Source of the DNA: Clostridiales bacterium
Lineage (GTDB): Bacteria > Bacillota > Clostridia > Mahellales > Mahellaceae
Direction: 5' to 3'
DNA: 45,992 nt
Assembly: GCA_030156435.1 (NCBI GenBank)
Contig: JASGMM010000007.1
Location: 1-45,992, forward strand
How positions within the stretch are numbered: position 1 is the first letter of the stretch; each line of letters begins with the position of its first letter. A program made the position numbers and the translations under genes. The notes under the pieces are model-generated. The model saw nothing but the letters and a program-made list of their open reading frames with translations, did not search any database and was not told the DNA's origin. Of this stretch, positions 27,773-45,992 are shown in pieces.

Positions 27773-27949
27773 AGCAGAGGATGAAATTGCGTTTTTAGAT
27801 ATGTTGAACAGGCTGCTCGTGAGAAATTTGCGGATGACAGTTGTTATATTAGGATAAAACACTATCTCGGGCAGCCGGAAAATTTTTTTATAATCGCAAC
27901 CGTTATATTATTCTTGGGTGATATAATTTACGTAGAGGAGGAGTGTGCT
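27773..27949 (+). other. herA-cas6 intergenic region with coding-like remnant
   Basis: No complete gene is found in these 177 bases. Two overlapping frames look protein-like. One, from 27771 to a stop at 27855, reads EAEDEIAFLDMLNRLL. The other is in frame with cas6 from 27785 and reads AAREKFADDSCYIRIKHYLG. Neither has a start of its own with a ribosome site. They could be the remains of a third gene of the nurA-herA unit, or chance. The right half holds the cas6 promoter block. Confidence 0.35.
27885..27927 (+). promoter_or_regulatory. cas6 promoter block, copy 1 of a duplicated element
   Basis: The block is TTTTTATA (27885-27892), 3 bases, GCAACCGTTATA (27896-27907), 14 bases, TATAAT (27922-27927). 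An almost identical block with the same spacing lies before the large-subunit gene at 28938-28980. At a 17-base spacing the -35 hexamer would be ACCGTT, a poor sigma-A match, so an activator or other DNA-binding protein may read the conserved part. Confidence 0.6.
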
Positions 27950-28933
27950 ATGAGCATTAATGAGGAAATAAGCAAAGCCATTAAAGATTTTACTTTGGCA
28001 AAATATAACTTAAGGATAAAAAGCGGCAAAGAAGGTTTAGAATTGCCGCCATATAAGGGTTCTACCTTCAGAGGTGTATTCGGTCATGCTTTTAAATCGA
28101 CTATATGCAGTCATGCTCAAGACTGTCATGAATGTGAAGTAAAGAGTATTTGCGCATACAGTTATATCTTTGAGACAACTCCACCTGATGATACTATGGT
28201 ATTAAAAACGTATGATGATATACCGAGGCCTTTTGTTATAGAACCGCCCTTAAACTCCAGAACTCACTATGACGAGGGTGATAGGCTTTCATTTAACCTG
28301 ATACTGATCGGTCGTGCTATTAAATATTTGCCATATTTCATATATGCATTCCAGAAAGCTGGAGAAATGGGTATAGGCAAAGGACGGCGGCCTTATAGTC
28401 TCGATGAAGTTAAAACGATAGAATTATTCAGCGATAAAGGGGAAACCATTTATACGATTTATGACGGCAAGGTGATCAACAACGACAGATACATTAGAGG
28501 TTCGGAAATCGTAGAGATAAGCAAACGATATAAGAACGTAGAGCACTTAACTTTATCATTTGATACCATGTTGCGTATTAAGAAGGACAAGCATTTGGCC
28601 ACAAAAATGGAATTTCATATTCTGATAAGGAGTATCTTAAGACGATTCTCTAATCTATGTTATTTTCACCATGATTATCAACCTGAACTGGATTACAAGA
28701 GAATTATTGAAGCATCGCAACAAGTTAAAATAGTGGAAGATGATACCGATTGGGACGATTGGGAAAGATTTTCCAATAGACAGGATAGCCGTATGCGATT
28801 TGGCGGCCTCGTTGGCAAGATAACGTATGAAGGTCATATAGGAGATTTCATGCCGTTACTTTTACTCGGTGAACAGATTCACGCAGGCAAAAATGTTACT
28901 TTCGGTTTGGGTAAATACTCTATTATGGTATAA
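27950..28933 (+). CDS. cas6: CRISPR pre-crRNA endoribonuclease Cas6
   Basis: RAMP-fold protein of 327 residues that should cut the array transcript within each repeat, leaving an 8-nt 5' tag. The N-terminal part has the RGVFGHAFK motif followed by a cysteine cluster C-x4-C-x2-C-x4-C within about 20 residues, as in Cas6 of the PF10040 group. The C-terminus has the glycine-rich loop GKNVTFGLGKYSI expected of Cas6. The ATG at 27950 follows GAGGAGGAG by 6 bases; in-frame starts upstream would read through the promoter block. It stands in its own promoter unit before the effector genes and may also have served the lost type III system. Confidence 0.9.
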   Translation: MSINEEISKAIKDFTLAKYNLRIKSGKEGLELPPYKGSTFRGVFGHAFKSTICSHAQDCHECEVKSICAYSYIFETTPPDDTMVLKTYDDIPRPFVIEPPLNSRTHYDEGDRLSFNLILIGRAIKYLPYFIYAFQKAGEMGIGKGRRPYSLDEVKTIELFSDKGETIYTIYDGKVINNDRYIRGSEIVEISKRYKNVEHLTLSFDTMLRIKKDKHLATKMEFHILIRSILRRFSNLCYFHHDYQPELDYKRIIEASQQVKIVEDDTDWDDWERFSNRQDSRMRFGGLVGKITYEGHIGDFMPLLLLGEQIHAGKNVTFGLGKYSIMV

Positions 28934-28937
28934 ATTA

Positions 28938-28980
28938 TTTTTATAGATGCAACTGTTATAGCATTGCGCTATGTTATAAT
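28938..28980 (+). promoter_or_regulatory. Effector operon promoter block, copy 2 of the duplicated element
   Basis: The block is TTTTTATA (28938-28945), 3 bases, GCAACTGTTATA (28949-28960), 14 bases, TATAAT (28975-28980). It matches the cas6 block in order and spacing, with one difference in the 12-base core. It predicts separate but co-regulated transcription of cas6 and the effector genes. Confidence 0.6.
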
Positions 28981-29015
28981 AGTCCAAATAAGAGTGATAA
29001 AAAAGGGGTGTAAAA

Positions 29016-31214
29016 ATGGCTTATTCTTTAGAGAATACTATAGAACAGGAAATATACGGTTTCTTAACGGCCCAAGATATTGAAGAAGAAGAATTGCCGC
29101 AGCGTATAAAAGAGCAAATACTAAGAGGCAGCGTATATGCCGAGTTTCCTACTGCTAAAGATGGCAGCTATAGGTTGGTATTATTTAGGTTGGCATCTCC
29201 GGTTACTATGAGGGAAGAGGTGTTTTTGGGTTCTATTCTCTTGAATTCGTTTTTGAGCCAAAATGTGCTATTGGCATGTCAAGGTAAGCAGATGGGTCAT
29301 ATTGCTATGGTAGCTAATGATTTGGAGAACTTTTATTACCTTTGGTACACCGATGAAACGTTGGATAAGCTGTTGGAAATATATCGGCAGCAGTTAGAGA
29401 ATAATCTGCTTGATCTCTATTTAGGGCCACAGAATGAAGAGAAGGGCATACACGGCGATATATACAAGCTTTTCGATTTCCATAAGAATAACATAGAGGC
29501 TTTTCCTATATTTGCTATGCCAAGGGCTTATGTGCCTGAGCTGGGGGAGATAGCTCGTAAATTGTTGCTGCAGCGTATAAATGATTTTGATTTCCACAGC
29601 CAAGCTAACCCTACCAAAATAACGGCTAATATGGCATTTTTCCTGTCTCGCGAAGGAAATGAATTCCAATCGCCATATGTTCTAATTGCCCGTATGACTG
29701 GGAGGTATGGTTCAAAGACGGGCATAACTGTTCGGGAATTAAGTAGGGCATTTAATATATCCGATACATATGATTTAAGCACGAAGACCGGCGAAACCGC
29801 ATGTGCAAAGGATATAAAAGAAAGCCTTGGTAAGGCCAAATATTCACCGGATCGCACGAAGGCATTATTTACCGAAATCGTGAATATAGGTGATAAGTTA
29901 GCAAAAAATGAGCCCGATGAATGGGATATGAAATACGCCAGAGATAAAGCGTTGGAGTTGTCTCCTGCTGAACTGATAGATGAACTGCTCGGTCAATGCC
30001 AAATGGGGTATTTAATGCTCGGTGATCACAAAGAAGATGCAAAAGGTATATATTGCCGGTGTTGCGGCGCTAATGTGGCTGAGCTTAAAGAGAACCACAT
30101 CATAATGGGAGAGGATGTTGGTAAGTACCACAATCAGTTTGTCAACCATGATGCGGATGCAGATACGAAAATATGCATAAAATGCTGCGTGCAATCTTAT
30201 TTGGCGCTTAGAGTGACGGGTAATATAGCCGGTAGTCTAGCCTTTGTTCCATGCCAATCGAGTATGATATTTCATTTTGGCGATCATACTGATGCCGATA
30301 TCAAAAATATAGCTGCTTTATTAAAGCAAGTATTTACTCTGGTAAAGGCAAGAAAGGCTAATAAAAGGATTCTATATGAGTTAAGGACAAAGAAAAACGA
30401 GATGGTTAAAAAATTGGATAGCACGAAGTCATCAAGGAAACAAAATGAACTTCAGGAACAACTGAACGAAGTTGATGAGGCTTTACAAAGAGCGATGAAT
30501 GAAGATGCCGCCTATGTGGAATTGCTTAAACAACAACTTAAGTATAAAATTGATCCTGATACCGATCCGGCTATAGATGTCTTTTCTGAGGCAGACATCG
30601 ATATTGATATACCCGAAAACTATGTTTTTGGTATAGGATTAGGTAACTATAGGCTCATGGCCTTTATTCTGCCTGAATTTAGAAACTACGACAATAAAAA
30701 ATCCCACGATTTTGTGCAACAGAAATTCAACAACAGCAAGATAACCAATATAACCGTTTTGGCGTTTTTGCGTAAATTATGCGGTTGTAACGGCCCATAT
30801 TATTATATGACTTTACCGGCACTGGATGAAAGGAATTTCTCCACCGATACCTTCTATGTACATGATAAAGAATACAGCGCTGAGGAGGTGATGGGATATT
30901 TTGAGCTTTTTACCGAATTCAGCGGTCAAGTAATGAAACGGGGCAGGGACAATAATCTTGTTAGAAAGATGATTTTAGCTGAGCGTATGCTGTACGATCC
31001 TCTTATCACGCTCTCCGAAGTTATGCGTCATTCCAGAGCGTTGTCGATGGATAACGCGGATAAATACCATGTTATAATTGATCCTATCTCCAGGCAGCCG
31101 GATCTCAATAAATATCTATACTTATACCTTAAGTCAAGGGATTTTGAAATATCTAATAATAAGGAGATGAAGCAATATGGAAGAATTTGCATTGAGCGAA
31201 AAAGAATTAGATGA
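29016..31214 (+). CDS. Type I-D-like effector large subunit (Cas10d/Csc3-like) without HD domain
   Basis: Large protein of 732 residues in the place of the effector large subunit. A zinc-binding region with CRCCG (about residue 346) and CIKCC (about 386) recalls the zinc finger of Cas10d. A long charged helix, probably coiled coil, covers about residues 442-510 (ELRTKKNEMVKKL onwards). No HD motif is found at the N-terminus, unlike typical type I-D Cas10d, and no GGDD cyclase motif is present, so it should not make cyclic oligoadenylate. The HD nuclease is encoded separately at 39493. I place it as Cas10d-like from context (Csc1- and Csc2-like neighbours) and the zinc region; a divergent Cas8 is the alternative. 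Confidence 0.65.
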   Translation: MAYSLENTIEQEIYGFLTAQDIEEEELPQRIKEQILRGSVYAEFPTAKDGSYRLVLFRLASPVTMREEVFLGSILLNSFLSQNVLLACQGKQMGHIAMVANDLENFYYLWYTDETLDKLLEIYRQQLENNLLDLYLGPQNEEKGIHGDIYKLFDFHKNNIEAFPIFAMPRAYVPELGEIARKLLLQRINDFDFHSQANPTKITANMAFFLSREGNEFQSPYVLIARMTGRYGSKTGITVRELSRAFNISDTYDLSTKTGETACAKDIKESLGKAKYSPDRTKALFTEIVNIGDKLAKNEPDEWDMKYARDKALELSPAELIDELLGQCQMGYLMLGDHKEDAKGIYCRCCGANVAELKENHIIMGEDVGKYHNQFVNHDADADTKICIKCCVQSYLALRVTGNIAGSLAFVPCQSSMIFHFGDHTDADIKNIAALLKQVFTLVKARKANKRILYELRTKKNEMVKKLDSTKSSRKQNELQEQLNEVDEALQRAMNEDAAYVELLKQQLKYKIDPDTDPAIDVFSEADIDIDIPENYVFGIGLGNYRLMAFILPEFRNYDNKKSHDFVQQKFNNSKITNITVLAFLRKLCGCNGPYYYMTLPALDERNFSTDTFYVHDKEYSAEEVMGYFELFTEFSGQVMKRGRDNNLVRKMILAERMLYDPLITLSEVMRHSRALSMDNADKYHVIIDPISRQPDLNKYLYLYLKSRDFEISNNKEMKQYGRICIERKRIR

Positions 31215-31851
31215 GTTTTGCTATACGGTGTTTAAGGCTATGGATGCTTTAGGTTTTCTCCCCATATCTTTAAAGAGCCGTGAAGCGACACCAAGCCGTT
31301 TGGAGAAATATCCGCGACTTTTGTTAGGATATTTGCAGCGCTACGATGATTCTATCATTGCTTTTAAGGAATGGGAAAGTAAATTGCTGCGTGATGTGCC
31401 GAGCGATGATGCTAACTTTCGCAAGGATAAATACTTTGGGGTGGTCAGCAACGTCGAGAAATGGCTGGAGAATCACAAAGATATGTTCAGTGGCAGAAAT
31501 AAAAAACTGGTCATACAACATTTGCGCGGTAGCTTATATGCTCGTATATTTGCATATATGTATCCGCGCCGAGCCATATGCTTTGCGGTCAGCGATGAAA
31601 TGCGGGATAGGAAAGGCTCGTATGAAGAAGCGTTGCAGCAGTTTGATAATATAGTTGCGCAATCCCGTGAACTGCATGATATCAAAGGTATTATGGACGA
31701 TGAAGAATGGAATATGGCGTTGACTGACGCTAAGCAGATATTCGCTGATGCATCTGGGTTTTACAGGAAAGTTATTGAAGGAAAAATGAAGGAGACAAAA
31801 GAAACGATAGAAGGAATAGAAAGGGAGGACGATTACTATGATGAGCGATAA
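31177..31851 (+). CDS. Helical protein overlapping the large subunit gene; candidate small subunit (Cas11-like)
   Basis: Protein of 224 residues, almost entirely predicted helix, with a very acidic C-terminus (EREDDYYDER). I recognise no domain. The start overlaps the large subunit gene by 38 bases and has its own AAGGAG site at about 31160; the end overlaps cas7 by 14 bases. In known type I-D systems the small subunit Cas11d is an internal product of the cas10d 3' end. A separate overlapping gene at the same place could do that job here. Size and helicity fit, but sequence similarity is not evident to me. Confidence 0.5.
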   Translation: MEEFALSEKELDEFCYTVFKAMDALGFLPISLKSREATPSRLEKYPRLLLGYLQRYDDSIIAFKEWESKLLRDVPSDDANFRKDKYFGVVSNVEKWLENHKDMFSGRNKKLVIQHLRGSLYARIFAYMYPRRAICFAVSDEMRDRKGSYEEALQQFDNIVAQSRELHDIKGIMDDEEWNMALTDAKQIFADASGFYRKVIEGKMKETKETIEGIEREDDYYDER

Positions 31852-32818
31852 TCTGAGCAATTTTATAAAACAAATGAATGAATTGAAAGATGTATTGGAA
31901 CCACAGCCCTTTGGTAATGGTGGAAAGAAAATAGCCAAGCCTTCTATGGTAAAGAAAGTGGCAACCATTATAGGGGTTAAAACTACTGCCTCCAGGTTTA
32001 TACCGGTTTCTCATGAGGGCTATTCAACAGATACTTACATAGATAGGGTGGATATTTTTGGTGTAAACAGGGCTGAATTTATAGGCCGTAAGCAAAAAGG
32101 GATAGAACGCAGAGCGCATATGACCATGTTCCGGGAGTTATTGGAAAACATGTCCGGTCAAAAATGGGAGGACGTATTTAAAAAGTACTTCGGTGATACG
32201 TGCATAATTCCCGATGATCTCTGCCTTGCCTGTTGGAATTGCTCATTGTTTGGCGGATTAGAAGCCGGGAAAGGCGCTGTTTTTTCTAGAATAAGGTATT
32301 TTGACACTTACTCTATTGAACCGGCAGAATTTGCAGTGGCCATGGAAGGCAGTGAAGAAGGTATGGCTATAGGTAATACTGTATCTGAGAATTTATCGGC
32401 AAAACGTGGTTCTGATTCATATCATCAATATGAATACGTAAAAGCCGGTACGCATTTTCCATTTATCGCTATAATTGAGAATCCGACATTATTAGATGTC
32501 ATAGGGTACATAAGGGCTGTGCGTATAGCGGATAATCAAGGGTACGGCAAATACTCAGCTAACCATGGTAAGTTTGACACTCAATTTTTAGCCGTTTCAA
32601 CCGGCTATCCACGATTTTCTGTGTTGGATATGATAGAGTGGGCGGGGGAAGATTACTCGATAAAAAATGTACTTGATATGTTTAACGGCAAGAAGCCGGG
32701 CGTTGAGTTTGATACGGTAACCGATGTACCTATAGCCCTTTACGGAGATGAAATAGACGAGATGGCGCAGCTATTATCCAGAGAGTTTAAAATGTATTTT
32801 GAGATGTTAAAGGGATGA
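31838..32818 (+). CDS. cas7: Cas7 backbone protein, Csc2-like
   Basis: RAMP protein of 326 residues, expected to form the crRNA-binding filament of the effector. It has a cysteine motif LCLACWNCSLFGG (C129, C132, C135), then FSRIRYFDTYSIEPAEF and EYVKAGTHFPFIAIIENP, followed by a region rich in Gly/Tyr (NQGYGKYSANHG). The order CxxC / FG / TFP-like / DP-like / R-x-YG resembles Csc2 of type I-D. The ATG at 31838 or 31841 may be used. The stop overlaps the cas5 start in an ATGA arrangement. Confidence 0.75.
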   Translation: MMSDNLSNFIKQMNELKDVLEPQPFGNGGKKIAKPSMVKKVATIIGVKTTASRFIPVSHEGYSTDTYIDRVDIFGVNRAEFIGRKQKGIERRAHMTMFRELLENMSGQKWEDVFKKYFGDTCIIPDDLCLACWNCSLFGGLEAGKGAVFSRIRYFDTYSIEPAEFAVAMEGSEEGMAIGNTVSENLSAKRGSDSYHQYEYVKAGTHFPFIAIIENPTLLDVIGYIRAVRIADNQGYGKYSANHGKFDTQFLAVSTGYPRFSVLDMIEWAGEDYSIKNVLDMFNGKKPGVEFDTVTDVPIALYGDEIDEMAQLLSREFKMYFEMLKG

Positions 32819-33585
32819 TTGACATGGAGTTATTTTGCAGACGTTTCGTCTTGCGTAACTGTGGGCGCTTTTTACACATAAGCTCCGATTTCGGTTCAAA
32901 ATATAAAACTCATTTATTTGTTACATCAGAGGCCTTATATGCGGGTATGACCAGGGAAATGACGCGAAAGCCTAAAATGGTGGATATAAAAGAAGATGTA
33001 TATGATTTTTATGCCACTTATGATATCGCAGGATTCCCGGTATGGTTTACTCCCGGCATATTTGTGGAGGACACCGCGATTTTGGAACCGATTAGGTCGC
33101 GCAAGATGATCGATGTAAATACTTTTAACGTTATGGATGAAGATTATCCCGGTACAGGATCGGGCAAGAAACGGCATTCATCCCCTACTTACGGCACTAT
33201 GGAGAGCATATTGCCGGGTAATTACCTCGTATTTTTTGGGTTTTCGACATGTGAAAAATATTTGAGTAGTTATCAAATGGGGAGCGTTTATATGTTGGGC
33301 AAAAAGCGCACTATGTGTCAAATAGTTGATATGTCGCCAGTATGTTTATGTGATTACGATAGGAATGGAGATGTTTACCCCGTACAGATTGATCACATGC
33401 AAATCAATGATTTCTCTGAATATACTATACACGCTGTGACTATGCGGTATATGCTTGTAAGCGGCTTGTATAAGAAAGAAGTGGTTAAATGCCGCTTTAG
33501 CGGTAACGGTTTTGAAGATGGTAATTGTATTCCGGCTCAAGAATACGCTTTCCCTTTAGCCGCTATACCTGAAGCCCTTTCTTGA
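32815..33585 (+). CDS. cas5: Cas5 protein, Csc1-like
   Basis: RAMP protein of 256 residues that should cap the 5' tag end of the crRNA. The recognisable part is FPVWFTPGIF (a Y/W-TPA-like motif of Csc1), a proline/glycine turn ESILPGNYLVFFGF and SVYMLGKKRTMCQI, matching the Csc1 pattern of a hydrophobic strand followed by LGK. Assignment is by these short motifs and by position after the Csc2-like gene. Two starts are possible, 32815 (ATGA overlap) and 32824 (better spaced from AAAGGG). Confidence 0.7.
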   Translation: MIDMELFCRRFVLRNCGRFLHISSDFGSKYKTHLFVTSEALYAGMTREMTRKPKMVDIKEDVYDFYATYDIAGFPVWFTPGIFVEDTAILEPIRSRKMIDVNTFNVMDEDYPGTGSGKKRHSSPTYGTMESILPGNYLVFFGFSTCEKYLSSYQMGSVYMLGKKRTMCQIVDMSPVCLCDYDRNGDVYPVQIDHMQINDFSEYTIHAVTMRYMLVSGLYKKEVVKCRFSGNGFEDGNCIPAQEYAFPLAAIPEALS

Positions 33586-33892: not shown

Positions 33893-34900
33893 ATGGACAT
33901 TGTAGTAGATGATTTCGGCATATCCTTAGGGAAGAAAAGCGAGAGATTGCTGATAAAAAAGAAAGGCGAAGTTTTGAGTGAAATACCGTTTTTCGATGTT
34001 TCACAAATAATTATTTCATCTTCCGGTGTTTCTATATCAACGGATGTAATACAAGAATGCATGGCTAACGGTATACAGATCAGTTTCCTCAGTTTTAACG
34101 GTCAGCCGTATGCGCGTATTTCCTCACCGAATCTCACAGGCACGGTCATTACTCGCCGCGAGCAGCTTATGGCATATAACGACAAACGCAGTGTGCTTTT
34201 GTCGAAGGAGATTATTAACGGTAAGATAAGAAACCAAGGCAACGTGCTTAAATACTTTGCACGCTATTGTAAAAATGCTGATCCAAAGCTCTATAGGCAG
34301 ATGTACGAGGGGGTGGGACAATTGGATGCTAGGCTATCGGAGCTTGCGGTTATCGATGGGGATAAAATAGACGACGTAAGGTTACAAATAATGTCTGTAG
34401 AGGGCAGAGCATCCGATATATATTGGCAAAATGTAAGATTGTTGCTTCAAGATAAGGTGGATTTTGCTAAAAGAGAGCATCGGGGAGCGACTGATCCTGT
34501 TAATTCGTTGCTTAATTATGGTTACGGTATGCTCTATTCGCAAATATGGGGAGCATTGATCTTGGCCGGACTGGAACCATTCGCCGGTTTCATGCATGTT
34601 GATAGGCCGGGCAAACCCTCCATGACGTTAGACCTTATAGAGGAATTTCGCCAGACCGTTGTGGACAGAGTAGTTGTAGCCATGATACGTAAAGGTGCCG
34701 AAGTTGAGCTGGTGGAGGGGAGACTAACGGATCAGATACGTAAAACGCTTATATCCAAGATAAACGAGAGATTGGACAGCAAAGAAAAATATGATGGCAA
34801 AGATTTTACGATACGTACTATAATACAGAAACAAGCGCGGCGGATTGCTACTTATTTACGCGGCGAAAATAAATATAAGGCTTTTGTGGGTAAATGGTAA
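33893..34900 (+). CDS. cas1: CRISPR integrase Cas1
   Basis: Cas1 of 335 residues, the metal-dependent integrase that with Cas2 inserts new spacers at the leader end. The catalytic ligands are E170 in SVEGRASDIYW, H235 in GFMHVDRPGKPSM and E250 (with D247) in LDLIEEFR. The N-terminal beta-strand domain and the C-terminal helical domain are both complete, and KQARRIATYLRGE near the end is typical. No strong ribosome site is seen directly before the ATG; the degenerate repeats end 28 bases upstream. It opens the adaptation-helicase operon. Confidence 0.97.
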   Translation: MDIVVDDFGISLGKKSERLLIKKKGEVLSEIPFFDVSQIIISSSGVSISTDVIQECMANGIQISFLSFNGQPYARISSPNLTGTVITRREQLMAYNDKRSVLLSKEIINGKIRNQGNVLKYFARYCKNADPKLYRQMYEGVGQLDARLSELAVIDGDKIDDVRLQIMSVEGRASDIYWQNVRLLLQDKVDFAKREHRGATDPVNSLLNYGYGMLYSQIWGALILAGLEPFAGFMHVDRPGKPSMTLDLIEEFRQTVVDRVVVAMIRKGAEVELVEGRLTDQIRKTLISKINERLDSKEKYDGKDFTIRTIIQKQARRIATYLRGENKYKAFVGKW

Positions 34901-34912
34901 AGGAGGTGACCT

Positions 34913-35188
34913 ATGAAAACATTGGTTATTTTCGATATACCGTCGAATAAGATAAGAAACAAAATAGGAGAGGCATGCAAAGACTATGGCTTGATGCGCA
35001 TACAAAAAAGTTCTTTTTTTGGCGATATAAATAATAATAGGCGAGAAGAATTGAGGCTGAGGCTAAAGAAGATATTAGATATAAGAGAAGGCAATATACA
35101 AATGTTTCCTATATGTGACAAAGATCTACAAATGCGAAAGGTTATCATTAATCAAAAGGAAGAGCTGTCATATGAAACCGATAACTAA
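34913..35188 (+). CDS. cas2: CRISPR adaptation protein Cas2
   Basis: Cas2 of 91 residues, the ferredoxin-fold dimer at the core of the Cas1-Cas2 integration complex. It starts MKTLVIFDIPSNKIRNKI with the conserved D8, and RIQKSSFFGDI is the usual second motif. The strong AAAGGAGGTGACC ribosome site before the ATG is nearly a perfect anti-SD match. Its last six codons overlap the start of cas4. Confidence 0.96.
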   Translation: MKTLVIFDIPSNKIRNKIGEACKDYGLMRIQKSSFFGDINNNRREELRLRLKKILDIREGNIQMFPICDKDLQMRKVIINQKEELSYETDN

Positions 35189-35783
35189 TGATAAGATAGC
35201 GGACATGATAAACGTAACCGATATAAAACAATATATATATTGTCCCAGGATAATATATTATACGTATGTTATGCCCGTAGAGAAAAAATTGTCCTTTAAA
35301 ATGGAGTATGGCAAAGAACAACATATGGAATTAGATCGGCTGGAAAAACGGCGCAAGTTTGTATCTTACGGTTTCGCTGAAGGAAAAAGGATATTTCATT
35401 TGACCGTTGCGTCCGAGAGATTGAATCTTTTGGGCGTGATAGATATGGTTATAGAGGCATATAACGGCCATATGAAATTCTATTACCCGGTGGAGTTCAA
35501 AAACACCTCCGGTAGAATCCAGCTAAATCATAAATATCAGTTAACGGCCTACGCTATGCTTTTGGAACAATGGTCTGATAAACCTGTGGGGAATGGTTTT
35601 ATATATATTATTCCATCTAAGGATATTTACTCCGTGGCGATTACTCAAAATATGAGGGACTATGTAAAACGCGTTATCGGTGCCATTTATAATATTATAA
35701 AATCGGAGAGTTATCCCGAAACGCGTTCAATGAGATGCTGCCATGACTGTGAATATAAGAATTATTGTGCTGATTTGGGGTGA
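35172..35783 (+). CDS. cas4: Cas4 exonuclease
   Basis: PD-(D/E)XK nuclease of 203 residues with an iron-sulfur cluster, used to trim new spacers and choose the PAM end. Cluster cysteines are C24 (IYCPRIIYY) and C190, C193 and C199 near the end. The nuclease core is H50, D91 (LLGVIDMVIE), E108 and K110 (YPVEFKNTSG), followed by the QLTAYAMLL helix. All key residues are present. The ATG at 35172 follows AAGGAAGAG and overlaps cas2 by 17 bases. A second Cas4-family gene follows after 4 bases. Confidence 0.95.
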   Translation: MKPITNDKIADMINVTDIKQYIYCPRIIYYTYVMPVEKKLSFKMEYGKEQHMELDRLEKRRKFVSYGFAEGKRIFHLTVASERLNLLGVIDMVIEAYNGHMKFYYPVEFKNTSGRIQLNHKYQLTAYAMLLEQWSDKPVGNGFIYIIPSKDIYSVAITQNMRDYVKRVIGAIYNIIKSESYPETRSMRCCHDCEYKNYCADLG

Positions 35784-35787
35784 AGAT

Positions 35788-36705
35788 ATGTATTTCTTGA
35801 GTCAAGAAGAAAGGAAGCATTTGCTTAAAGGATATTTGCCGCGTTCACGAGAAGTCGATATTGCCGAAGAACTGCGTGGCTGGAATTGGAATGAGCCGCC
35901 CTTAGTTCCTATTTACGACATTAAACTTCCGTTGTATGAGATAGCCAATAAATATTGCGATACCGGACGAGATGTTTATTTGAAACGTGTGGAAAATGTT
36001 AAAGTACAGCCAAATACGGATATGATAACGGGCAGCGCATTTCACGGTATATTGGTATCCTTTATCGTAAAGGCTAAAAAACTGATATATAATTTGGGAG
36101 TCGACGAATACACTAAAATTTTTGATGAATTAAAAGTTCCGGATTATAATGCATTGGAAAGCCAGAACAGCTTATTGGATGCGACTGCGTATGAAAGCAT
36201 AAAGAGCAAAGCCCGATTGATATGGGAATATGAATATGCGCAGGCCGTAGGGCGTATACAGGATGTATTGGCGCGCCAACCATATGTAGGTGAGGATAGT
36301 CTGATATCCCTGGCTTTACCTGTAATAGTGGAGCAAAAATTAGATGGTTCGTTTTTAGGCTTGAGCCGTTATCTGAGCGCCGATGCTTTTACCCTTTCCG
36401 AGCCAATGGTGGTTGATCTGAAATTCGGCCCCAAAAAGGACTTCCATAGGCTTACTACGACAGGTTATGCGCTTGTCATGGAAAGCGTTTTTGAATTTCC
36501 AGTTAACGTAGGGTGTATAGTTTATGGTTATTTTAAAAACAATCGATTGATCATAGAGAAGGATTTTCACATTATAGATGATGAATTGCGTCAATGGTTT
36601 ATAGAACAAAGGGATGACCGAATGCGCATGATATACGAAAGTATGGATCCGGGAGTATCTGAGAATTGTTATGATTCGTGCCCGTATTATGGCGTATGTC
36701 ATTAG
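35788..36705 (+). CDS. csa1: Cas4-family protein Csa1
   Basis: Protein of 305 residues of the Csa1 family, a Cas4 relative found mostly with type I-A systems of archaea. The N-terminus MYFLSQEERKHLLKGYLPRS with EELRGWNWNEPPL, and CDTGRDVYLKRV, match what I know of that family. Nuclease-like motifs are LKFGPKK (MVVDLKFG) and the preceding acidic VEQKL, with a C-terminal cluster CYDSCPYYGVC plus the upstream Cys in KYCDTGRDVY. The ATG at 35788 follows GGGGTGAAG. Csa1 is thought to work with Cas4 in spacer processing; the pair here is complete. Confidence 0.85.
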   Translation: MYFLSQEERKHLLKGYLPRSREVDIAEELRGWNWNEPPLVPIYDIKLPLYEIANKYCDTGRDVYLKRVENVKVQPNTDMITGSAFHGILVSFIVKAKKLIYNLGVDEYTKIFDELKVPDYNALESQNSLLDATAYESIKSKARLIWEYEYAQAVGRIQDVLARQPYVGEDSLISLALPVIVEQKLDGSFLGLSRYLSADAFTLSEPMVVDLKFGPKKDFHRLTTTGYALVMESVFEFPVNVGCIVYGYFKNNRLIIEKDFHIIDDELRQWFIEQRDDRMRMIYESMDPGVSENCYDSCPYYGVCH

Positions 36706-36727: not shown

Positions 36728-39499
36728 ATGTCGCAAATTGAATTAATGGTATACAATACGCTGCCTTCCGTGGGTGATTGTATGTTTGCCGATGAGGTAA
36801 ACCTTTTCAGATCATATATAGGTGATGACGAAGTGTGCCCTTATGTACATCAAGCCGAGGCTTTTAATCGTATCCACCAAGGAGATAACGTAACCATGGT
36901 GGCCGGAACGGCTGCAGGTAAAACATTGGCGGTGGCTGTACCACTTTTTGTGAAACTATCCAAAGGTTTAATAAATAAGATTATGTTTCTATATCCGACC
37001 ATAGCGTTAATGGACGACCAAAAGACGGTTATGGAGAAACTCGCACTTTTAAGCGGTTTACAAGATGAGGTAGGGTTAATATGCGGTGGTTTATCCAGAA
37101 CGGCCTTGATCAATAGTCTGTCCAAAAAAATACTGCTGGCCACGCCTGACGCCATATATTGGTTTTTCAGGAAGAACGTCAAATATAATTCGATAATGAT
37201 TTATGGTCTTTCACAAGTGGACGAATTCGTACTCGATGAGGCGCACCTGTTTTCAGGATTAACACTGCAAAACCTAAATCTTTTCTTTAAACGAATTGAA
37301 ATATTACAGCAACAATTTTTAGGCCGCGATTTGTTCCATTTGCATGTGCTAACCGCCACCCCCCATGATGAGCTTTTCTTACTGAATAACGGTTATCGCA
37401 TAGATGGTAGGTCCAAGTGCGGAGATGTAAAGGTTGTTTTTTATAATACCTCGCCGTATGAAAAAGCGGATGATTTTCAAAATCTTATAAGCCAAGCAGT
37501 AGAAAAAGGTTTCGATAAGGTATTGGTTATATGCAATGGCGCTATGGTAGCCCACCGCCTCTTTCAGCAGCAAGCCGGGAAATTGAAGGACAGGAGTGCG
37601 TTTTTGCCTCAACATTATATGCAGTTTGGTCGTGTAAAGCGATCCGATTTAGAAGAGGGGCTAAGGGAAGCCGGAGTTGAAGATGAACTCATACGCCGTT
37701 TGGAAAGAGTAACTATTGAAAATACGATGTATAGATTGCCTCAGTTCAAAGAAGTGTTTGTTGAGGTTTCTGCCTCGGATATTTTCGAACCGCTCCAGCG
37801 CGTATTGACCAAGCTTAAGGGACAGATAATGCAGGTTTTGTATCTGATATTTAAATGTCGCAAAGATTTTTCAGGCAAACTTTCTTATGACGAATTTCAT
37901 TACAATGTCGGCAGAAGGAGTAAGGCTTTAGAGCATATACTGGAAACTTTAATAGAAGATAAAGGCATACATGATTATTTTGGGTGGAAAGAAAGCTTGA
38001 CGGGTGCATTAAATACAATGCTGGAGCAGATAGAAGAAAAATTGTCCGTTGCTGAACCTATTATTCTGAAGTGGCCGGGCTTAGAGGGGCTTGCCGATAT
38101 ATTGGATGGAATGCATGAAACGATTATACAAGAAGTGATAAAACGATTTAAGGATGATTTTTCATTTGGTTATAGTAGTATAAAAGAATATAAGGGACGA
38201 TTTCCTGTAAATACCGATCCCTATATCTATTTAAAATGGCTGAGAAATTATTTTGAGGATGATTTGAATGACATAAAGGAGGTATTACTTGAAACGTTGG
38301 CCGATGATCTCGAATTTAGGGATAAGATCGAGATGCAACATGTAGCTTTTATTAAAGGGTATGATTATCCGTTAATCATATATTCCGGCAGCATGTCCAA
38401 ACCGTCAAGGGACGGTCTTATCAACCTTTTTGACGGTTTGGACAAGGCTATTTTAATTTCGACGTCTGCTGTGGAGGTCGGGGTTGATTTCGTTGCAGAC
38501 TTGCTCATAAGCGAGCAATGTGAAGCCGGCTCGTTTCTGCAGCGATTCGGCAGAGTAGGCAGAGCGGGTAATATGGCTGAAGCATGGATATTGGCCGATG
38601 GTGGAACCTTCGGCGACATAAAGGATAAAATTGGGAATAGTGGCGGTAGAATCAGCCGCGAAGATTTTACATCGTTAATAAACCAATCGTTCGCTCATAA
38701 GGAACATATATGGTATTCTTTATTGGGAGAAGCTTCTTACCGTTTAATCAATGATCAAATAGGTATGATTGGTACCGAGATAAATAAGCGGTCATTTATA
38801 AGCAAGGAAGCTGATATGCTAGCCGATTCACTCAATAAAAACGATATCGTACTGGCATATGGCCTACGCAGCACTATGCCTTCCATATCATTGAGGGATG
38901 TCGGGGTTACACGTGATGCGTTTTATATTTTACAGTTCGTAGAAAATGAACGCTTGAAAGTGGAGGACTCATATTTTGAAGTAGCTTCGGCCGATATATA
39001 TTTTAATGAATTGCTTTGGCGTAAACGAAACTGGCGTATAGGAATGAATGTAGACAGGATGCTAGAGGAAAGCCAGGCTGTTTTTCTATGGAATGGTACC
39101 GAATTGGAAATTATAAGCGAGAGAGGTATTGGAAAATGGATGTATGATGCTTTATTAAGTATATCGAATAAATTTCCGAATAAATGTATTATGTTAGCCT
39201 ATGGCGATGTGTACCTTCAACGATATGATACAGGAGAGGAAATGGGTTCCATAAAAGATGTGGTTGATAAATACGAGGCACCTCTAATAATCCCGAATCA
39301 GTTTTATATAGTGATGCCTAAAATGAAGGATGTCGCTGGGTTGAAGAAAAGGGGATTATATGGCATTGATGAGATATATTATGATGTGGATTATAATGGT
39401 CAAAGCACCAATGGTAAGGATTTGGCGATGTTGGACAGGATACAGGGAGCTTGTATGGCGTTTTATATAAAATGGATGAAGGAAGGCACGTTATGTTGA
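36728..39499 (+). CDS. cas3: CRISPR helicase Cas3' without HD domain
   Basis: Superfamily 2 helicase of 923 residues, recruited by the effector to unwind target DNA. Walker A is AGTAAGKT (59-66), motif II DEAH (170-173), motif III TATP (209-212) and motif VI QRFGRVGRAG (about 604-613), with STSAVEVGVDF as motif V. Motifs V and VI resemble the type I-D (cyano-type) Cas3. About 250 residues, from about 290 to 540, sit between the two helicase domains and I recognise nothing in them, making the protein clearly longer than typical I-D Cas3'. The nuclease is the separate HD protein encoded by the next gene, which overlaps by 7 bases. Confidence 0.92.
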   Translation: MSQIELMVYNTLPSVGDCMFADEVNLFRSYIGDDEVCPYVHQAEAFNRIHQGDNVTMVAGTAAGKTLAVAVPLFVKLSKGLINKIMFLYPTIALMDDQKTVMEKLALLSGLQDEVGLICGGLSRTALINSLSKKILLATPDAIYWFFRKNVKYNSIMIYGLSQVDEFVLDEAHLFSGLTLQNLNLFFKRIEILQQQFLGRDLFHLHVLTATPHDELFLLNNGYRIDGRSKCGDVKVVFYNTSPYEKADDFQNLISQAVEKGFDKVLVICNGAMVAHRLFQQQAGKLKDRSAFLPQHYMQFGRVKRSDLEEGLREAGVEDELIRRLERVTIENTMYRLPQFKEVFVEVSASDIFEPLQRVLTKLKGQIMQVLYLIFKCRKDFSGKLSYDEFHYNVGRRSKALEHILETLIEDKGIHDYFGWKESLTGALNTMLEQIEEKLSVAEPIILKWPGLEGLADILDGMHETIIQEVIKRFKDDFSFGYSSIKEYKGRFPVNTDPYIYLKWLRNYFEDDLNDIKEVLLETLADDLEFRDKIEMQHVAFIKGYDYPLIIYSGSMSKPSRDGLINLFDGLDKAILISTSAVEVGVDFVADLLISEQCEAGSFLQRFGRVGRAGNMAEAWILADGGTFGDIKDKIGNSGGRISREDFTSLINQSFAHKEHIWYSLLGEASYRLINDQIGMIGTEINKRSFISKEADMLADSLNKNDIVLAYGLRSTMPSISLRDVGVTRDAFYILQFVENERLKVEDSYFEVASADIYFNELLWRKRNWRIGMNVDRMLEESQAVFLWNGTELEIISERGIGKWMYDALLSISNKFPNKCIMLAYGDVYLQRYDTGEEMGSIKDVVDKYEAPLIIPNQFYIVMPKMKDVAGLKKRGLYGIDEIYYDVDYNGQSTNGKDLAMLDRIQGACMAFYIKWMKEGTLC

Positions 39500-40254
39500 T
39501 AGATGAATTCAAGAGATGCTATGGCAAGTCTACCGGAGCCTTGTCACTGTATGACCATGTTATTGGTTCCACGGTTATAGCAAAAGCTGTACTGGATAAG
39601 TTCGGAGGTGTTTATCCGGATTATCCGAAGAGTAAAAAGGATATGCTTATTTTTGCTACCTTTACGCATGATTTAGGCAAACTGGATACGGATTTTCAGG
39701 CCATGCTGTGTGCTGTTATAGCAGGAAAACCGATGCCGCCCAAACGTGTAAAGCATGAGGCCAGTACGTTGGATTACGTTGATTTGCTCGAAAATGGGCA
39801 GGGCGAGGTATATAATGTGCTTAATGATGAATTGCATTATGTTGTTGATAGTAAAATAGATTTAGAGATGGCTTTAGCATTTGCGGTATCACACCATGGC
39901 CTTTTTTACATGGCTTATGAAGCTACGGTTAATTATGGTAATCAGTGGCTGATACGCAGGGAGTGGACCACTAGGCCTTCACGGGAGATAAAGCGCATAA
40001 CATTAGTGGATCTTTTGTTTATGTATCACCCATTTGGAGGGCTGGTCATGATATCTGACCTTATACATTCGTTCTGCCATGAAAAAGGTATAGATTATCG
40101 CTATGTCTTAGAGAACAGCGACTCCTATAAAGGATTAATAGATTCTTTGATATGCAAAGCTGACGAATTGGAGGCAACGTTGAACAGGAGTGATCCAAGG
40201 GGTAATAGAAGCCTTGCAAGCTTGCTGAGGCTGTTGCTCGGTGAAATAAAATGA
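39493..40254 (+). CDS. Stand-alone HD nuclease Cas3''
   Basis: HD-domain metal-dependent nuclease of 253 residues. Metal ligands are H22 (LYDHV), H59 and D60 (FTHDLGKLD), H88 (VKHEAS) and H134/H135 (AVSHHGL), the full HD set of Cas3. It should degrade the DNA opened by Cas3'. A separate HD protein is the rule in type I-A but not in type I-D, where the HD is part of Cas10d. The ATG follows AAGGAAGG and overlaps the helicase gene. The next reading frame, a csm1-like remnant, begins right at its stop. Confidence 0.93.
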   Translation: MLIDEFKRCYGKSTGALSLYDHVIGSTVIAKAVLDKFGGVYPDYPKSKKDMLIFATFTHDLGKLDTDFQAMLCAVIAGKPMPPKRVKHEASTLDYVDLLENGQGEVYNVLNDELHYVVDSKIDLEMALAFAVSHHGLFYMAYEATVNYGNQWLIRREWTTRPSREIKRITLVDLLFMYHPFGGLVMISDLIHSFCHEKGIDYRYVLENSDSYKGLIDSLICKADELEATLNRSDPRGNRSLASLLRLLLGEIK

Positions 40255-40280: not shown

Positions 40281-40530
40281 ATGGGCGATAAAGAATTTAA
40301 TTCTGTTTTAATGGCGGGATTATTGCGATGTTGTGATATTATATGGGAATGGCACAATAACGGTAGCTTTTTGGAGAATCGCAAATTTAGCTATCCCGAT
40401 GATGTTGACGGCATATTGGTGGATAATCTTGTTAAAGGTCGTTCCGATGATGCGAGGCATTTGGTCCGCATATTGGATAATGCGTTCAGCAGCGTTAATT
40501 CATTCATTTATCCTCGTCAAGGCAACGACA
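40281..40530 (+). pseudogene. csm1 (cas10)-like 5' remnant, truncated by deletion
   Basis: About 80 codons in one frame, from the ATG at 40281 (GGAGAGGG upstream), that read like the beginning of Csm1. EFNSVLMAGLLRCCDI stands where Csm1 has the HD start GALLHDIGK, and ARHLVRILDNAFSS stands where it has a hydrophobic helix before ASxER. The HD pair itself is gone. No palm, GGDD or zinc domain follows: the frame runs on to 40649 only because it is read out of frame through csm4 sequence. This points to a deletion removing most of csm1, csm2, csm3 and the first codons of csm4. The identification is tentative. Confidence 0.45.
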
Positions 40531-41433
40531 GCGATTTAGCGGCTTTATCACGCCTTTTAAGTCTGATACTATATTCGGTCATTTATGCTGGGCATTATTG
40601 TATACAGAAGGACGGCAGGCATTGGATGAACTATTGCAGATGTGTTTAAAAGGTGAACCGCCGCTTGTTCTATCTAATGCCTATCCTGGCGATTTATTGC
40701 CAAGGCCGCTGGTAGCAATGGAGAAAATAGCGGAAAATCAGATCCTGGACCCAATAGATGCTTTGAAACGTTCTAAAAGGGGCAAGGCGCTGAAAGATTT
40801 GCGTTATGTTACCGTTGCTCAGTTCGATAAATTAAGAAAAGGTAGGGGCTTTGAGATGGAAAAGATTGAAGCCATAGATCCTATGGCACCGAAGATATTT
40901 TCCATAACACGGTTGATAGGTTACTCGGCACGACCGGCGAGGGTGGCCTATACGTTGAAGAAGAAACTTTCCCAAATGCCAGTGCATATCCGTATTTATC
41001 ATTGTATGTTTGGTGTAAACCGAATTGGCGTAGTAAATTGCTTAATTTGCTTGTTTTCGTAGGCAAAGAGGGCTTTGGCAAAAGGCGTTCGATAGGCAAG
41101 GGGCAATTTGAAGTAATGCCTCCCGACGATGTTAGCCGGATTTTTGAGTTGGACAAGCCCAATGCTTTCGTGAGCCTTTCGGATTTTATTCCAGCAAAAG
41201 ACGACCCTACTGACGGCACATTTCGAACATTTACTAAATATGGGAAACTAGGCGGAGAGTATGCGGCATCTGGCCAGCCATTTAAACGTCCATTACTGAT
41301 GATTGCGGCAGGCGCAGTATTTAAGGCTGAGCATGTAAAGCCCTTTTATGGGAAAGCATTGGAGTCAGTGGCTAAGGTTGATTCTCATATTATACACCCG
41401 GCTTTTGCTTTAGCGGTCCCGGCTAAAATTTAA
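40499..41433 (+). pseudogene. csm4: Frameshifted csm4 (type III-A RAMP protein), start lost
   Basis: Clear Csm4 sequence broken into two frames. The first (40499 to about 40890, no start codon) reads FITPFKSDTIFGHLCWALL, then GEPPLVLSNAYPGDLLPRPL, as in the N-terminal half of Csm4. The second (about 40891 to 41433) reads HNTVDRLLGTTGEGGLYVEE, GFGKRRSIGKGQFEV, FVSLSDFIP and ends HPAFALAVPAKI, the diagnostic C-terminal half. The switch of frame lies between 40870 and 40903. Joined, they give about 300 residues, the normal Csm4 length. The protein cannot be made as it stands. Lengths and reading frames were followed by eye. Confidence 0.85.
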
Positions 41434-41450
41434 ATTTTGGGAGAATGGAT

Positions 41451-42800
41451 ATGAAAAACGTATTACTTACATTTGTCGGTAAGCAGGATCCTTTTTCGGA
41501 GAAGACGGGGAAAGAGGGAGGTATAGTAACTATTGTAAGAAAATATAAGTTTGATATTGTAGTGATGTTACCGTCAGCGGATATGCCGGGGGTTAAAGAT
41601 TCTACGCAAACTAATGCTTATGATACGAAAGACTGGATCCATGATGAGGTTAGTACAGATATAGGTGTGTACGTTAAGCCTTTGAGTTTGTCGGATCCTA
41701 CAAGTTATCGGCAAATTATGTCGGAAGGAGAAAAAGAGCTTAAAGCACTAATGGACTCTTTGTGTAAGGAAGATGTAAAATTCTATCTAAATAGTTCTTC
41801 TGGGACACCGGAGATGAAAAGCATGTGGCTTGTTTGGGCCAACAGTGCTTTTATACCGAAGGCTGTGGTATTGCAGGTCGCGGACCCGACATTTGTAGCC
41901 GAAGGCGATAGAGTGAGGGAGCTAGATATAGATTTTATAGAAGAAGTAAATTGCAAAAATAGAGCGGCGCGTTATATAGAACAGGGGTTATTTAAGGTGG
42001 CGGCGGAAGAACTGAATTCTCTATCGCGGATAGCTTATAGTTCGGCAAGAACAGATAAAGCATGTATGTTGAGCGATATATGCATGTCATGGCATTGCTG
42101 GGATTTGATAAATTATAAAGAGGCTTATGACCGCTTGGCGAATGTATATAATAAATACTCCAACAGCCGCGATATAGCCGATACTTTGGCTATAATAAAA
42201 AAGCAGGTTGATTATTTGAACAATTTGAAAATGGAGACATCTTCCGAGAATATATATAATATGGTAGATCTTTTTTATAATATGAAAAGGCGGTTTGAAC
42301 GGGAGGATTATACTGATGCATTGGCCCGTTTTTGGCGATTATATGAAGGGTCTATGTATTACGTGCTCAGAACATATTATGGCGTAGAGCCTGAAAAATT
42401 GTGTGAGAGCCATAACAAACAAAATCTGTTTATGATTAGAAATGGCTTAAATGTAAATGAAAGGTTAAATTATAGTTCCGCGCATAAAGCATTAAAAGAT
42501 ATTTTTCGTGATAAAAGGCTGAACAATATCTTACAGCAAACTGTATTGATAGATAGACAAGATTCTCAGCAAAGGAAATCGGTACAAGAAGCATTGGAAG
42601 ATCTAAGGAACTTTAGGAATGAGTCTATTGTTGCTCACGGAATGAAATCTGTATCAAGAGATTATGCGGATGCGGCAGTAAAAGTGGCCCCTATTGTTCT
42701 AAAAGGGTTTTTCCGGGATGATATAAATGCGATATTGGAAGAGTATCCTTTTGAACATAGCAAGATGGAAACTATAGCACAATTTACACGTATGATATAA
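41451..42800 (+). CDS. csm6: CARF-HEPN ribonuclease, Csm6 family, intact
   Basis: Protein of 449 residues. The N-terminal CARF domain starts MKNVLLTFVGKQDPF and carries the ligand-loop motif NSSSGTPEMKSMWLVWA (about residues 114-130), followed by VVLQVADPTFV. The C-terminal HEPN domain has the RX6H active site RNESIVAH (R389 and H396). In type III systems such proteins are switched on by cyclic oligoadenylate made by Cas10 and then degrade RNA. No frameshift or stop is found. The ATG at 41451 is better spaced from GGGAGA than the ATG at 41445. It follows the broken csm4 after about 17 bases and is the last gene before the array. Confidence 0.9.
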   Translation: MKNVLLTFVGKQDPFSEKTGKEGGIVTIVRKYKFDIVVMLPSADMPGVKDSTQTNAYDTKDWIHDEVSTDIGVYVKPLSLSDPTSYRQIMSEGEKELKALMDSLCKEDVKFYLNSSSGTPEMKSMWLVWANSAFIPKAVVLQVADPTFVAEGDRVRELDIDFIEEVNCKNRAARYIEQGLFKVAAEELNSLSRIAYSSARTDKACMLSDICMSWHCWDLINYKEAYDRLANVYNKYSNSRDIADTLAIIKKQVDYLNNLKMETSSENIYNMVDLFYNMKRRFEREDYTDALARFWRLYEGSMYYVLRTYYGVEPEKLCESHNKQNLFMIRNGLNVNERLNYSSAHKALKDIFRDKRLNNILQQTVLIDRQDSQQRKSVQEALEDLRNFRNESIVAHGMKSVSRDYADAAVKVAPIVLKGFFRDDINAILEEYPFEHSKMETIAQFTRMI

Positions 42801-42836
42801 AGTCAGACTCATTACCGGAGCAACGAAATTATTATT

Positions 42837-42854
42837 GATTGTTACCGAACAATC
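42837..42854 (+). terminator. Hairpin after csm6
   Basis: GATTGTT, loop ACCG, AACAATC: a perfect 7-bp stem 37 bases after the csm6 stop, followed by an A-rich rather than T-rich stretch. It is a weak candidate for a terminator. A second, AT-only 6-bp hairpin (AGATAC / GTATCT, 42870-42888) with TCTATAATTTT after it could also stop the operon transcript. Confidence 0.35.
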
Positions 42855-42896
42855 TGTTAAAATAAAAAAAGATACATTTTAAGTATCTCTATAATT

Positions 42897-43021
42897 TTCG
42901 AAGATAGCCGAACGAACACCTAAATGGTGGTAATTCAGATGCTTAGTAACATAAGCTGTAATGTTTGAAATAGGCGGTAAGTAGCCATATATATAAGTAA
43001 TGCGAGCTTCGAAGATAACCG
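42897..43021 (+). repeat. Direct repeat TTCGAAGATA[GA]CCG in the leader
   Basis: The 14-base sequence occurs at 42897-42910 and again at 43008-43021 with one difference; the second copy overlaps the right arm of the long inverted repeat. The offset is 111 bases. The core TTCGAA is a palindrome. It may be a protein site; nothing more can be said. Confidence 0.6.
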
Positions 43022-43034
43022 CCTATTTCAAACA
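42962..43034 (+). repeat. Perfect 17-bp inverted repeat in the leader
   Basis: TGTTTGAAATAGGCGGT (42962-42978) and its exact complement ACCGCCTATTTCAAACA (43018-43034) are separated by 39 bases. The right arm lies 94 bases before the first repeat. It could form a long hairpin in RNA, be a double binding site for a protein, or be the ends of a 73-bp mobile piece, although no flanking duplication is seen. Confidence 0.85.
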
Positions 43035-43128
43035 AAGAACCCTTCTTCGAGATTTATAGCATGCACATTTATATCTGAATAGGCTTAGAAGCCGACTTTT
43101 AGCGGATGTTATCCGGTCGATCGGCTGG

Positions 43129-45992
43129 GTTTCATTCTAAGACCCGAGATAATGGGGATTGAAAGGATCGCATGAAGCTCATCTATTATGACACAATGAG
43201 AAGTTTCATTCTAAGACCCGAGATAATGGGGATTGAAAGGAAAAATTGCAGAACGAAAGAGCCGGTATATTGGCTGTTTCATTCTAAGACCCGAGATAAT
43301 GGGGATTGAAAGCATCGGCCATCTTCATTCCTCCTAAAAAAAAATAATTGTTTCATTCTAAGACCCGAGATAATGGGGATTGAAAGCTTCGTATATGCTG
43401 CGCACTGTCTTTTTTGCTTTAGCCGTTTCATTCTAAGACCCGAGATAATGGGGATTGAAAGCCGGATATCAATCCCCGGCCATCGCCTTACAGTGCCGGG
43501 TTTCATTCTAAGACCCGAGATAATGGGGATTGAAAGCCTGCTTTTGACGCATGAGGCTTAACAGGTATAAACAGTTTCATTCTAAGACCCGAGATAATGG
43601 GGATTGAAAGCGCTCTATTAACGCCGCCGTTAGCGCGCGCTGGGTTATGTTTCATTCTAAGACCCGAGATAATGGGGATTGAAAGAGGACCACACGCCGC
43701 CATGGCCCGCTCTGCGCTTGCTGTTTCATTCTAAGACCCGAGATAATGGGGATTGAAAGATTTATGCTGTGCCACATTACAAGCAGATTTGTATAGTTTC
43801 ATTCTAAGACCCGAGATAATGGGGATTGAAAGTAATACTTCACCAGTCGGCTCAATCAGTATAGCTTCAGTTTCATTCTAAGACCCGAGATAATGGGGAT
43901 TGAAAGGTGGACATCCATTCGTGAAAAGCTTCAATATTTGCGGTTTCATTCTAAGACCCGAGATAATGGGGATTGAAAGTCAAACCGTCTGTATCAACCA
44001 ATATTTCGGCCTCGCCGTTTCATTCTAAGACCCGAGATAATGGGGATTGAAAGTTTCATTCCACGTAAAATCCTGTATAGACATAGTCAGTTTCATTCTA
44101 AGACCCGAGATAATGGGGATTGAAAGTAATGCTTTTAACAGCGTTGGCACGGTTATACCTGCCGTTTCATTCTAAGACCCGAGATAATGGGGATTGAAAG
44201 ATCAGTCCATGTGGTATATGCTGACGCTATACCTTTAGTTTCATTCTAAGACCCGAGATAATGGGGATTGAAAGGTGCGCTATACTCAAGAAACCATCAC
44301 GCCCAGTAAATGTTTCATTCTAAGACCCGAGATAATGGGGATTGAAAGTCACCTTATACCGTAATAAAGCTATCACAACCGTAGGTTTCATTCTAAGACC
44401 CGAGATAATGGGGATTGAAAGACGAGTGCACCAGACTGGCTAGGAGTAACTGGAGGAAGTTTCATTCTAAGACCCGAGATAATGGGGATTGAAAGATCAC
44501 GCTGGGCTGTGTGAATATGGCACCTGTTTTGTAGTTTCATTCTAAGACCCGAGATAATGGGGATTGAAAGTATTATCGTCCTCTTACAGCCGCTTCTATA
44601 TCACGTAGTTTCATTCTAAGACCCGAGATAATGGGGATTGAAAGCTGACATGGGGATAAAAGTAATGGATATAAGGCATACAGTGTTTCATTCTAAGACC
44701 CGAGATAATGGGGATTGAAAGTGATATAAAAAGAGCTCTACAAGCTAAAAGGCAAAAGTTTCATTCTAAGACCCGAGATAATGGGGATTGAAAGACGTTG
44801 TAACACCATTTTTGACGAACAATACCGGCGCCGGTTTCATTCTAAGACCCGAGATAATGGGGATTGAAAGTATACATGTTATCGACGCATTTTAGCGTTA
44901 TTGTGTGTTTCATTCTAAGACCCGAGATAATGGGGATTGAAAGTGCTACAAAGGACAGAAAAAGGCAAGGAGATAAGACTGTTTCATTCTAAGACCCGAG
45001 ATAATGGGGATTGAAAGTAATGCCAGTTCGGCTATCTTACCCTTTTGCCGCAAGGATGAAGAAGGGTTTCATTCTAAGACCCGAGATAATGGGGATTGAA
45101 AGCATCGGTAAACAGTCGGTTGCCTTCTTCATCTATCACGTTTCATTCTAAGACCCGAGATAATGGGGATTGAAAGCGATATTCTCGATCGCTTTCGGTA
45201 GCCAGTACAGCCGGGTTTCATTCTAAGACCCGAGATAATGGGGATTGAAAGGTACTTGGCTACGGCCTTGCGCAAAAACTCGACCAATGGTTTCATTCTA
45301 AGACCCGAGATAATGGGGATTGAAAGCAACATTTATTGGTACCCCAGCCATTTTTAAGCCTCCCGTTTCATTCTAAGACCCGAGATAATGGGGATTGAAA
45401 GATCGCTAAAGAACGCGGCCAGTACATCCTGTTCGGCGGTTTCATTCTAAGACCCGAGATAATGGGGATTGAAAGAGCCCCGAATTTGTCGCCTATTTTT
45501 GGATATCCGCTCGTTTCATTCTAAGACCCGAGATAATGGGGATTGAAAGATATTCACCGTTTGCCGCATTATCAAGAAACGCTTTGTTTCATTCTAAGAC
45601 CCGAGATAATGGGGATTGAAAGTATTCTTCCTCTTCCTCAATCTTCACCTTAAAAGGTTTCATTCTAAGACCCGAGATAATGGGGATTGAAAGAAATTTT
45701 TGGACTAGTGAGGACGTTGGAAAGCTTAATGTTTCATTCTAAGACCCGAGATAATGGGGATTGAAAGTGTTCACATCAGCCCAAAACCTTTGAAATCCAA
45801 CCTTTGTTTCATTCTAAGACCCGAGATAATGGGGATTGAAAGCATGACCATCAAGCAATAAGTCATTATTGTATTCAAAGTTTCATTCTAAGACCCGAGA
45901 TAATGGGGATTGAAAGCCGATATGCGCAGCTACCTGTGCCCACGATAAGCCGTTGTTTCATTCTAAGACCCGAGATAATGGGGATTGAAAGC
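43129..45992 (+). CRISPR. CRISPR array, 39 repeats, continues past the window
   Basis: A 37-base repeat (begins GTTTCATTC, middle GACCCGAGATAATGG, ends GGGGATTGAAAG) occurs 39 times, from 43129-43165 to 45955-45991, all copies identical as far as I could follow. There are 38 complete spacers, mostly 36-38 bases; the exceptions are 34 (45623-45656), 39 (44795-44833), 40 (44645-44684) and 48 (45018-45065). I saw no duplicate spacers. The repeat has only a weak possible stem (CCC / GGG), like the little-structured repeats of archaeal-type systems. The array is still in progress at the right edge, so its end is not known. Confidence 0.99.

Follow-up and report, generated by a model that had tools for sequence, protein, structure and literature searches.

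The window, i.e., the whole stretch of DNA that was analysed, is one entire contig of 45,992 bases that ends inside a CRISPR array, and it belongs to a 2.19 Mb draft genome (104 contigs, 99.56% complete). Within it, an intact csm6 gene follows the wreck of a type III-A (csm) operon, next to a type I-D system and that array, laid out as follows.

27914..33585, + strand: type I-D effector operon, cas6, cas10d, cas11d, cas7d and cas5d (PADLOC, Pfam)
33893..36705, + strand: adaptation module, cas1, cas2, cas4 and cas4/csa1 (PADLOC/NCBIfam profiles)
36728..40254, + strand: cas3' helicase and cas3'' HD nuclease (profiles, motifs)
40281..40325, + strand: remnant of csm1 (cas10), its first ~15 codons only (csm1 start profile)
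40326..40537, + strand: ~210 bases separating the csm1 stub from csm4, origin unrecognised
40538..40873, + strand: first frame of the csm4 remnant (covers 15-119 of the 308 profile positions)
40888..41433, + strand: second frame of the csm4 remnant (covers 123-303 of the 308 profile positions)
41451..42800, + strand: csm6, an intact CARF-6H-HEPN ribonuclease gene (ORF, profile matches, alignment, predicted fold)
41793..41816, + strand: CARF ligand loop SSSGTPEM (sequence, alignment)
42615..42638, + strand: HEPN active-site motif R-x6-H, RNESIVAH (sequence, alignment)
43129..45992, + strand: CRISPR array of 39 identical 37-base repeats and 38 distinct spacers, reaching the contig end

The type I-D system and the remains of the csm operon

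The type I-D effector genes were recognised through PADLOC matches to Cas10d (1.9e-115), Cas7d (Csc2; 8.6e-14), Cas5d (2.5e-63) and Cas11d (9.5e-42), and a search of Cas10d for a GGDD motif found none, in keeping with the preliminary description of this DNA. The Walker A, DEAH and HDLGK motifs of the I-D Cas3 are all present, and its HD nuclease is encoded as a separate gene, as it is in all five related I-D loci (L109-L113), in each of which cas3', the HD gene and cas10d are adjacent in that order. In the window the cas3'-cas3'' pair is found instead downstream of csa1, adjoining the csm remnant, a position that suggests a rearranged hybrid I-D/III-A locus. The genome holds one array only of the window's repeat type; about three degenerate copies of that repeat lie between cas5d and cas1 (33735-33880) and are possibly a relic array. 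Upstream of the I-D operon, at 25916-27772, there is a HerA-like ATPase gene (PADLOC HerA/mad8 matches), and a promoter and terminator scan of 39400-43140 gave no sites above shuffles.

The csm1 remnant begins directly after cas3'' and breaks off just ahead of the expected HDIGK position. Its 12 residues at 40290-40325, KEFNSVLMAGLL, were spotted by eye before a csm1 start profile was built from relatives, and they then ranked top of the 53,694 six-frame 12-mers of the window against that profile. Nothing of csm1 beyond its start was recognised at the locus by profile searches in six frames, and sixteen profiles, again in six frames, gave no match to csm1-6 or to the I-D genes in the bases that follow (40326-40537), where the reading frame stays open in the csm1 frame. 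A by-eye guess that the middle of the ORF at 40251-40649 was Csm2 was discarded, as neither the csm2 profile nor those of eight other locus genes scored above shuffles there. The csm4 remnant is nearly full length and both of its frames are free of in-frame stops, its damage consisting of the loss of the start codon and first ~14 codons and one frameshift near 40873-40888. The csm2 profile found no match at the locus, and the Csm3 profile (TIGR02582) found none there or anywhere in the 2.19 Mb draft genome. The operon therefore falls short of a functional type III-A system in having no Cas10/Csm1 with a GGDD palm, no Csm2 or Csm3, and a frameshifted csm4. The deletion of Cas10/Csm1 that the preliminary description had reported is thus borne out, with the amendment that csm4 is also broken and that csm2 and csm3 are gone. 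The frameshift in csm4 is a lesion separate from the loss of csm1-csm3, although, as read from the contig sequence alone, it could be a sequencing error.

The Csm6 protein and its relatives

The reading frame of csm6 is open from 41445 to 42800 and would give 451 aa from 41445 or 449 aa from the ATG at 41451. The latter start is preferred, as had been proposed earlier, since a GGGAG sits 8 bases upstream of it and it agrees with the start position in the aligned relatives. The Pfam CARF model PF22208 matched the N-terminal region (30.4 bits, over its cut-off of 27.5), where the SSGTP-type loop is conserved, although the window protein has E at a loop position where the 17 other counted rows have Q. 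The HEPN domain matched PF09670 (38.3 bits, over its cut-off of 27) and has the R-x4-6-H arrangement expected of it; the arginine and histidine, R391/H398 when numbered from 41445 and R389/H396 from 41451, are invariant in 7/7 aligned sequences. The claim that the loop and the active site are intact is therefore upheld. The protein scored 453 bits (2.3e-136) against the PADLOC CARF-HEPN model and only 91.2 bits against the NCBIfam Csm6 equivalog TIGR02672, under that model's cut-off of 150, and is accordingly taken to be a divergent Csm6, assigned by fold and by the PADLOC model.

A PDB sequence search with Csm6 gave no match at E 0.01, and a fold search was therefore used, with an AlphaFold model of mean pLDDT 89. 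The best solved-structure match was Csm6 of E. italicus (E=2.4e-12), and the T. thermophilus and S. thermophilus proteins were also among the nearest. The solved III-A Csm6s (6tug from E. italicus, 5fsh/8jh1 from T. thermophilus, and Csm6' of S. thermophilus, 8pe3) have the same CARF-linker-HEPN order and fold and the same R-x6-H active site as the window protein, at only 13-16% identity; unlike them, it has E for Q after the SSGTP loop and no Cas10 partner was found for it.

Csm6 proteins of this kind are rare, being found in 4/391 genomes of the class (protein search, E 0.001), while the PADLOC family of Csm6 was found in 8/398 genomes of the phylum (E 1e-20), both counts including the source genome. 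A contig scan with the single Csm6 protein returned no relative; an alignment-based scan returned 39 loci. Of these, 17 were treated as close relatives (L044-L060, tblastn identity 25-41%); kept outside this set were L061, where the HEPN half alone matched, and the 21 loci L062-L082, most of which matched in the CARF half. The nearest Csm6 sequence is about 40% identical to that of the window. A csm1 profile match was present in the stretch read at 31/39 loci, and among the close set csm1 lies upstream in 14/17, the other three (L046, L048 and L049) being on contigs that end near the gene. Two of the 14 (L044 and L058) are apparently the same records as the profile seeds L019 and L021 and so match by construction; their csm1 was confirmed by direct reading, with GGDD. 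Given the 14 loci with csm1 upstream, Csm6 of the window's type is normally tied to a Cas10. In L061 (Clostridia bacterium DTU025), an ORF aligns to Csm6 in the linker and HEPN half alone (residues 174-445); the genome, apparently G561, has no Cas10 palm match, and the ORF is possibly a Cas10-free HEPN relative.

The gene order csm1-csm2-csm3-csm4-csm6, without csm5, was found in six loci (L018, L020, L045, L047, L055 and L057). The last four, from Dethiobacter, Pelotomaculum and other Bacillota, encode Csm6s among the closest to the window's (up to 41%) and have the same csm4-csm6 order without csm5 and the same cas1/cas4/csa1 kit. Unlike the window, they have csm1, and they gave no match to its cas10d, cas11d, cas7d and cas5d in the stretch read. 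The I-D large subunit is itself uncommon (1/382 class genomes and 6/398 phylum genomes, the source genome included in both), and among the matches listed for the phylum set the source genome alone combines it with a PADLOC-family csm6. The five other I-D loci, read over 16-20 kb each, gave no csm profile match, csm6 included (0/5), and a plasmid search with Csm6 gave two distant CARF-half matches and nothing else.

The search for an activating signal

As outlined in PMC12669027, PMC9704534 and PMC8730458, target recognition causes Cas10 to make cyclic oligoadenylate, and binding of this messenger to the CARF domain activates the HEPN domain. At this locus the synthase has been lost and the receiver kept, and no gene able to make the normal activating signal of Csm6 was recognised in the genome. 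Profiles for Csm1, the Cas10 palm, Csm3, SMODS and mCpol produced no credible cyclase in the draft genome, where Csm1_B (PF18211), the Cas10/Cmr2 palm (PF22335) and SMODS had no match at all. The palm search took in 11 genomes and matched in eight, the unmatched three being the source genome, a genus-mate (G002) and G561. A weak match to Csm1 (TIGR02578) belongs to an HD protein between folate genes, and a weak mCpol match, under the cut-off, falls in what reads as a membrane antiporter-like cluster; both were taken as unrelated genes.

The profile PF18144 does not span all CD-NTases, so CBASS is only partly excluded in this genome. Within that scope, the earlier observation that the window holds no source of cyclic oligoadenylate not only stands but extends to the draft genome, and the proposal that a second Cas10 elsewhere in the genome activates Csm6 finds no support: the genome-wide search for other Cas10 or CBASS/CD-NTase genes that had been suggested as a check gave none that is credible. 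Since the genome is a draft of 104 contigs and the window's contig ends in the array, a type III locus could sit in an assembly gap.

Retention of csm6 after the loss of its partners

The preliminary description had reasoned that the retention of csm6 suggests its activation. If selection had held csm6 while the rest of the module decayed, csm4 should look clearly worse, and it does not. Conservation of the two genes was compared across 14 relatives (L018, L020 and 12/17 of the close loci; L046 and L049 have no csm4 in the stretch read, and L053, L059 and L060 were not entered), in which csm4 identity tracks csm6 identity (r=0.73, 91 pairs of intact relatives). Against the regression on csm6, the window's csm4 has a mean residual of +3.6 points, within the -7.7 to +6.4 spanned by the relatives. 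Near-invariant columns are kept at 25/29 in the dead csm4 and 63/77 in csm6, i.e., with no advantage to csm6, in counts that penalise the window in both genes as it has no close sibling. With no stop in 293 codons of csm4 (879 bases), neutral change can have reached at most about 0.09 per site (95%), and the lack of stops in csm6 sets a limit of 0.05 per site. Although csm6 is free of lesions over 1347 bases, the probability that a single small lesion would hit csm4 rather than csm6 is 0.39 under neutrality, by length alone. Given this figure and the equal preservation of the dead csm4, the intactness of csm6 is no evidence of selection, and the premise that retention points to activation fails; selection on csm6 alone may have acted, being compatible with the data yet not required by them.

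Nor was there any acceleration in csm6, its end branch being 0.78 vs 1.0 for the nearest row. Conserved positions have changed at 9/36 in the CARF domain and 4/37 elsewhere (L046 and L049, cut at the contig start, were dropped beforehand), an excess that is not significant (Fisher p=0.14), and CARF-specific drift was rejected as a feature of the gene. A leave-one-out comparison of the Csm6 rows carries a bias, since close siblings exist for most of the other rows.

Very probably, then, Csm6 is an ordinary RNase activated by cyclic oligoadenylate that has been stranded by the recent partial loss of its III-A module. A module of the order csm1-csm2-csm3-csm4-csm6, without csm5, would have shared the locus with the type I-D system and been inactivated recently. 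Csm6 probably keeps its fold, and cyclic oligoadenylate could yet activate it; the cell, however, presumably no longer makes that molecule, and the protein would be silent or at basal activity. The I-D system and array would remain in use, and csm6 would be an effector heading for decay. Among the options offered earlier, recent loss is the supported one, owing to the state of the csm4 remnant, near full length and with no stops. A precedent for such loss comes from the escape mutants of Staphylococcus epidermidis described in PMC3784566, in which, when immunity was costly, the III-A system was lost through frameshifts in csm2, csm4 and cas10 and through deletions, as in the window, although under laboratory selection and with deletions that removed the entire locus. 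A search of literature, mainly of listings, brought up no report that we recognised of an intact Csm6 left beside a type I-D system. VC1899, as presented in PMC7969007, is an orphan CARF nuclease that, like the window's Csm6, lacks a type III system; it is reportedly not regulated by cA4 and founds a CARF family other than Csm6 (Can2-like).

It is unlikely that Csm6 is still used, and kept for that reason, with cyclic oligoadenylate supplied in trans by a Cas10 left out of the assembly or brought in by plasmids or other mobile elements. The draft state of the genome, the contig break inside the array, and a lesion-free Csm6 with its active-site residues kept would all suit such a supply; however, a completeness of 99.56% comes with no Csm1, palm or Csm3 match, there is a single array of the window's repeat, plasmids yielded just the two distant CARF-half matches, and the equally preserved dead csm4 makes selection unnecessary. 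Even harder to credit is an assembly error that hides csm1-csm3 present in the cell, in spite of the draft assembly and the 210 unexplained bases at the junction, as a displaced csm1 or csm3 would be expected on another contig, where none was found, and the csm4 frameshift is a second, independent lesion.

Nearly as doubtful is the adoption of Csm6, as an abortive arm, by the type I-D system or by some other signal not made by Cas10. The gene is intact, with the I-D genes on one side and the array on the other, and the Q-to-E change in its loop, unseen in 17 rows, accompanies the higher count of CARF changes; yet that excess is not significant, Cas10d has no GGDD, csm6 is near none of the five related I-D loci, and in the 2025 classification, as given in PMC12669027, types III-G and III-H lose cyclic oligoadenylate synthesis together with their CARF genes. 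The type I-coupled signal of the preliminary description therefore has no positive evidence. We give equally slight credence to the idea that Csm6 was kept after the loss of Cas10 as an RNase that serves the I-D system and is triggered by stress or infection, its CARF domain retuned to a non-Cas10 signal, and no greater credence to the Q-to-E change and the other unique CARF substitutions as marks of such retuning. Nothing at this locus calls for a new signal.

Were the CARF domain nevertheless retuned, a type I system would here possess a second-messenger arm that does without Cas10. If, as is far more probable, csm6 is a leftover of its lost module, what is captured here is a hybrid I-D/III-A locus shedding its signalling half, in which the effector briefly outlives the synthase, and it would caution that an intact orphan CARF gene is, on its own, poor proof of a new signal.
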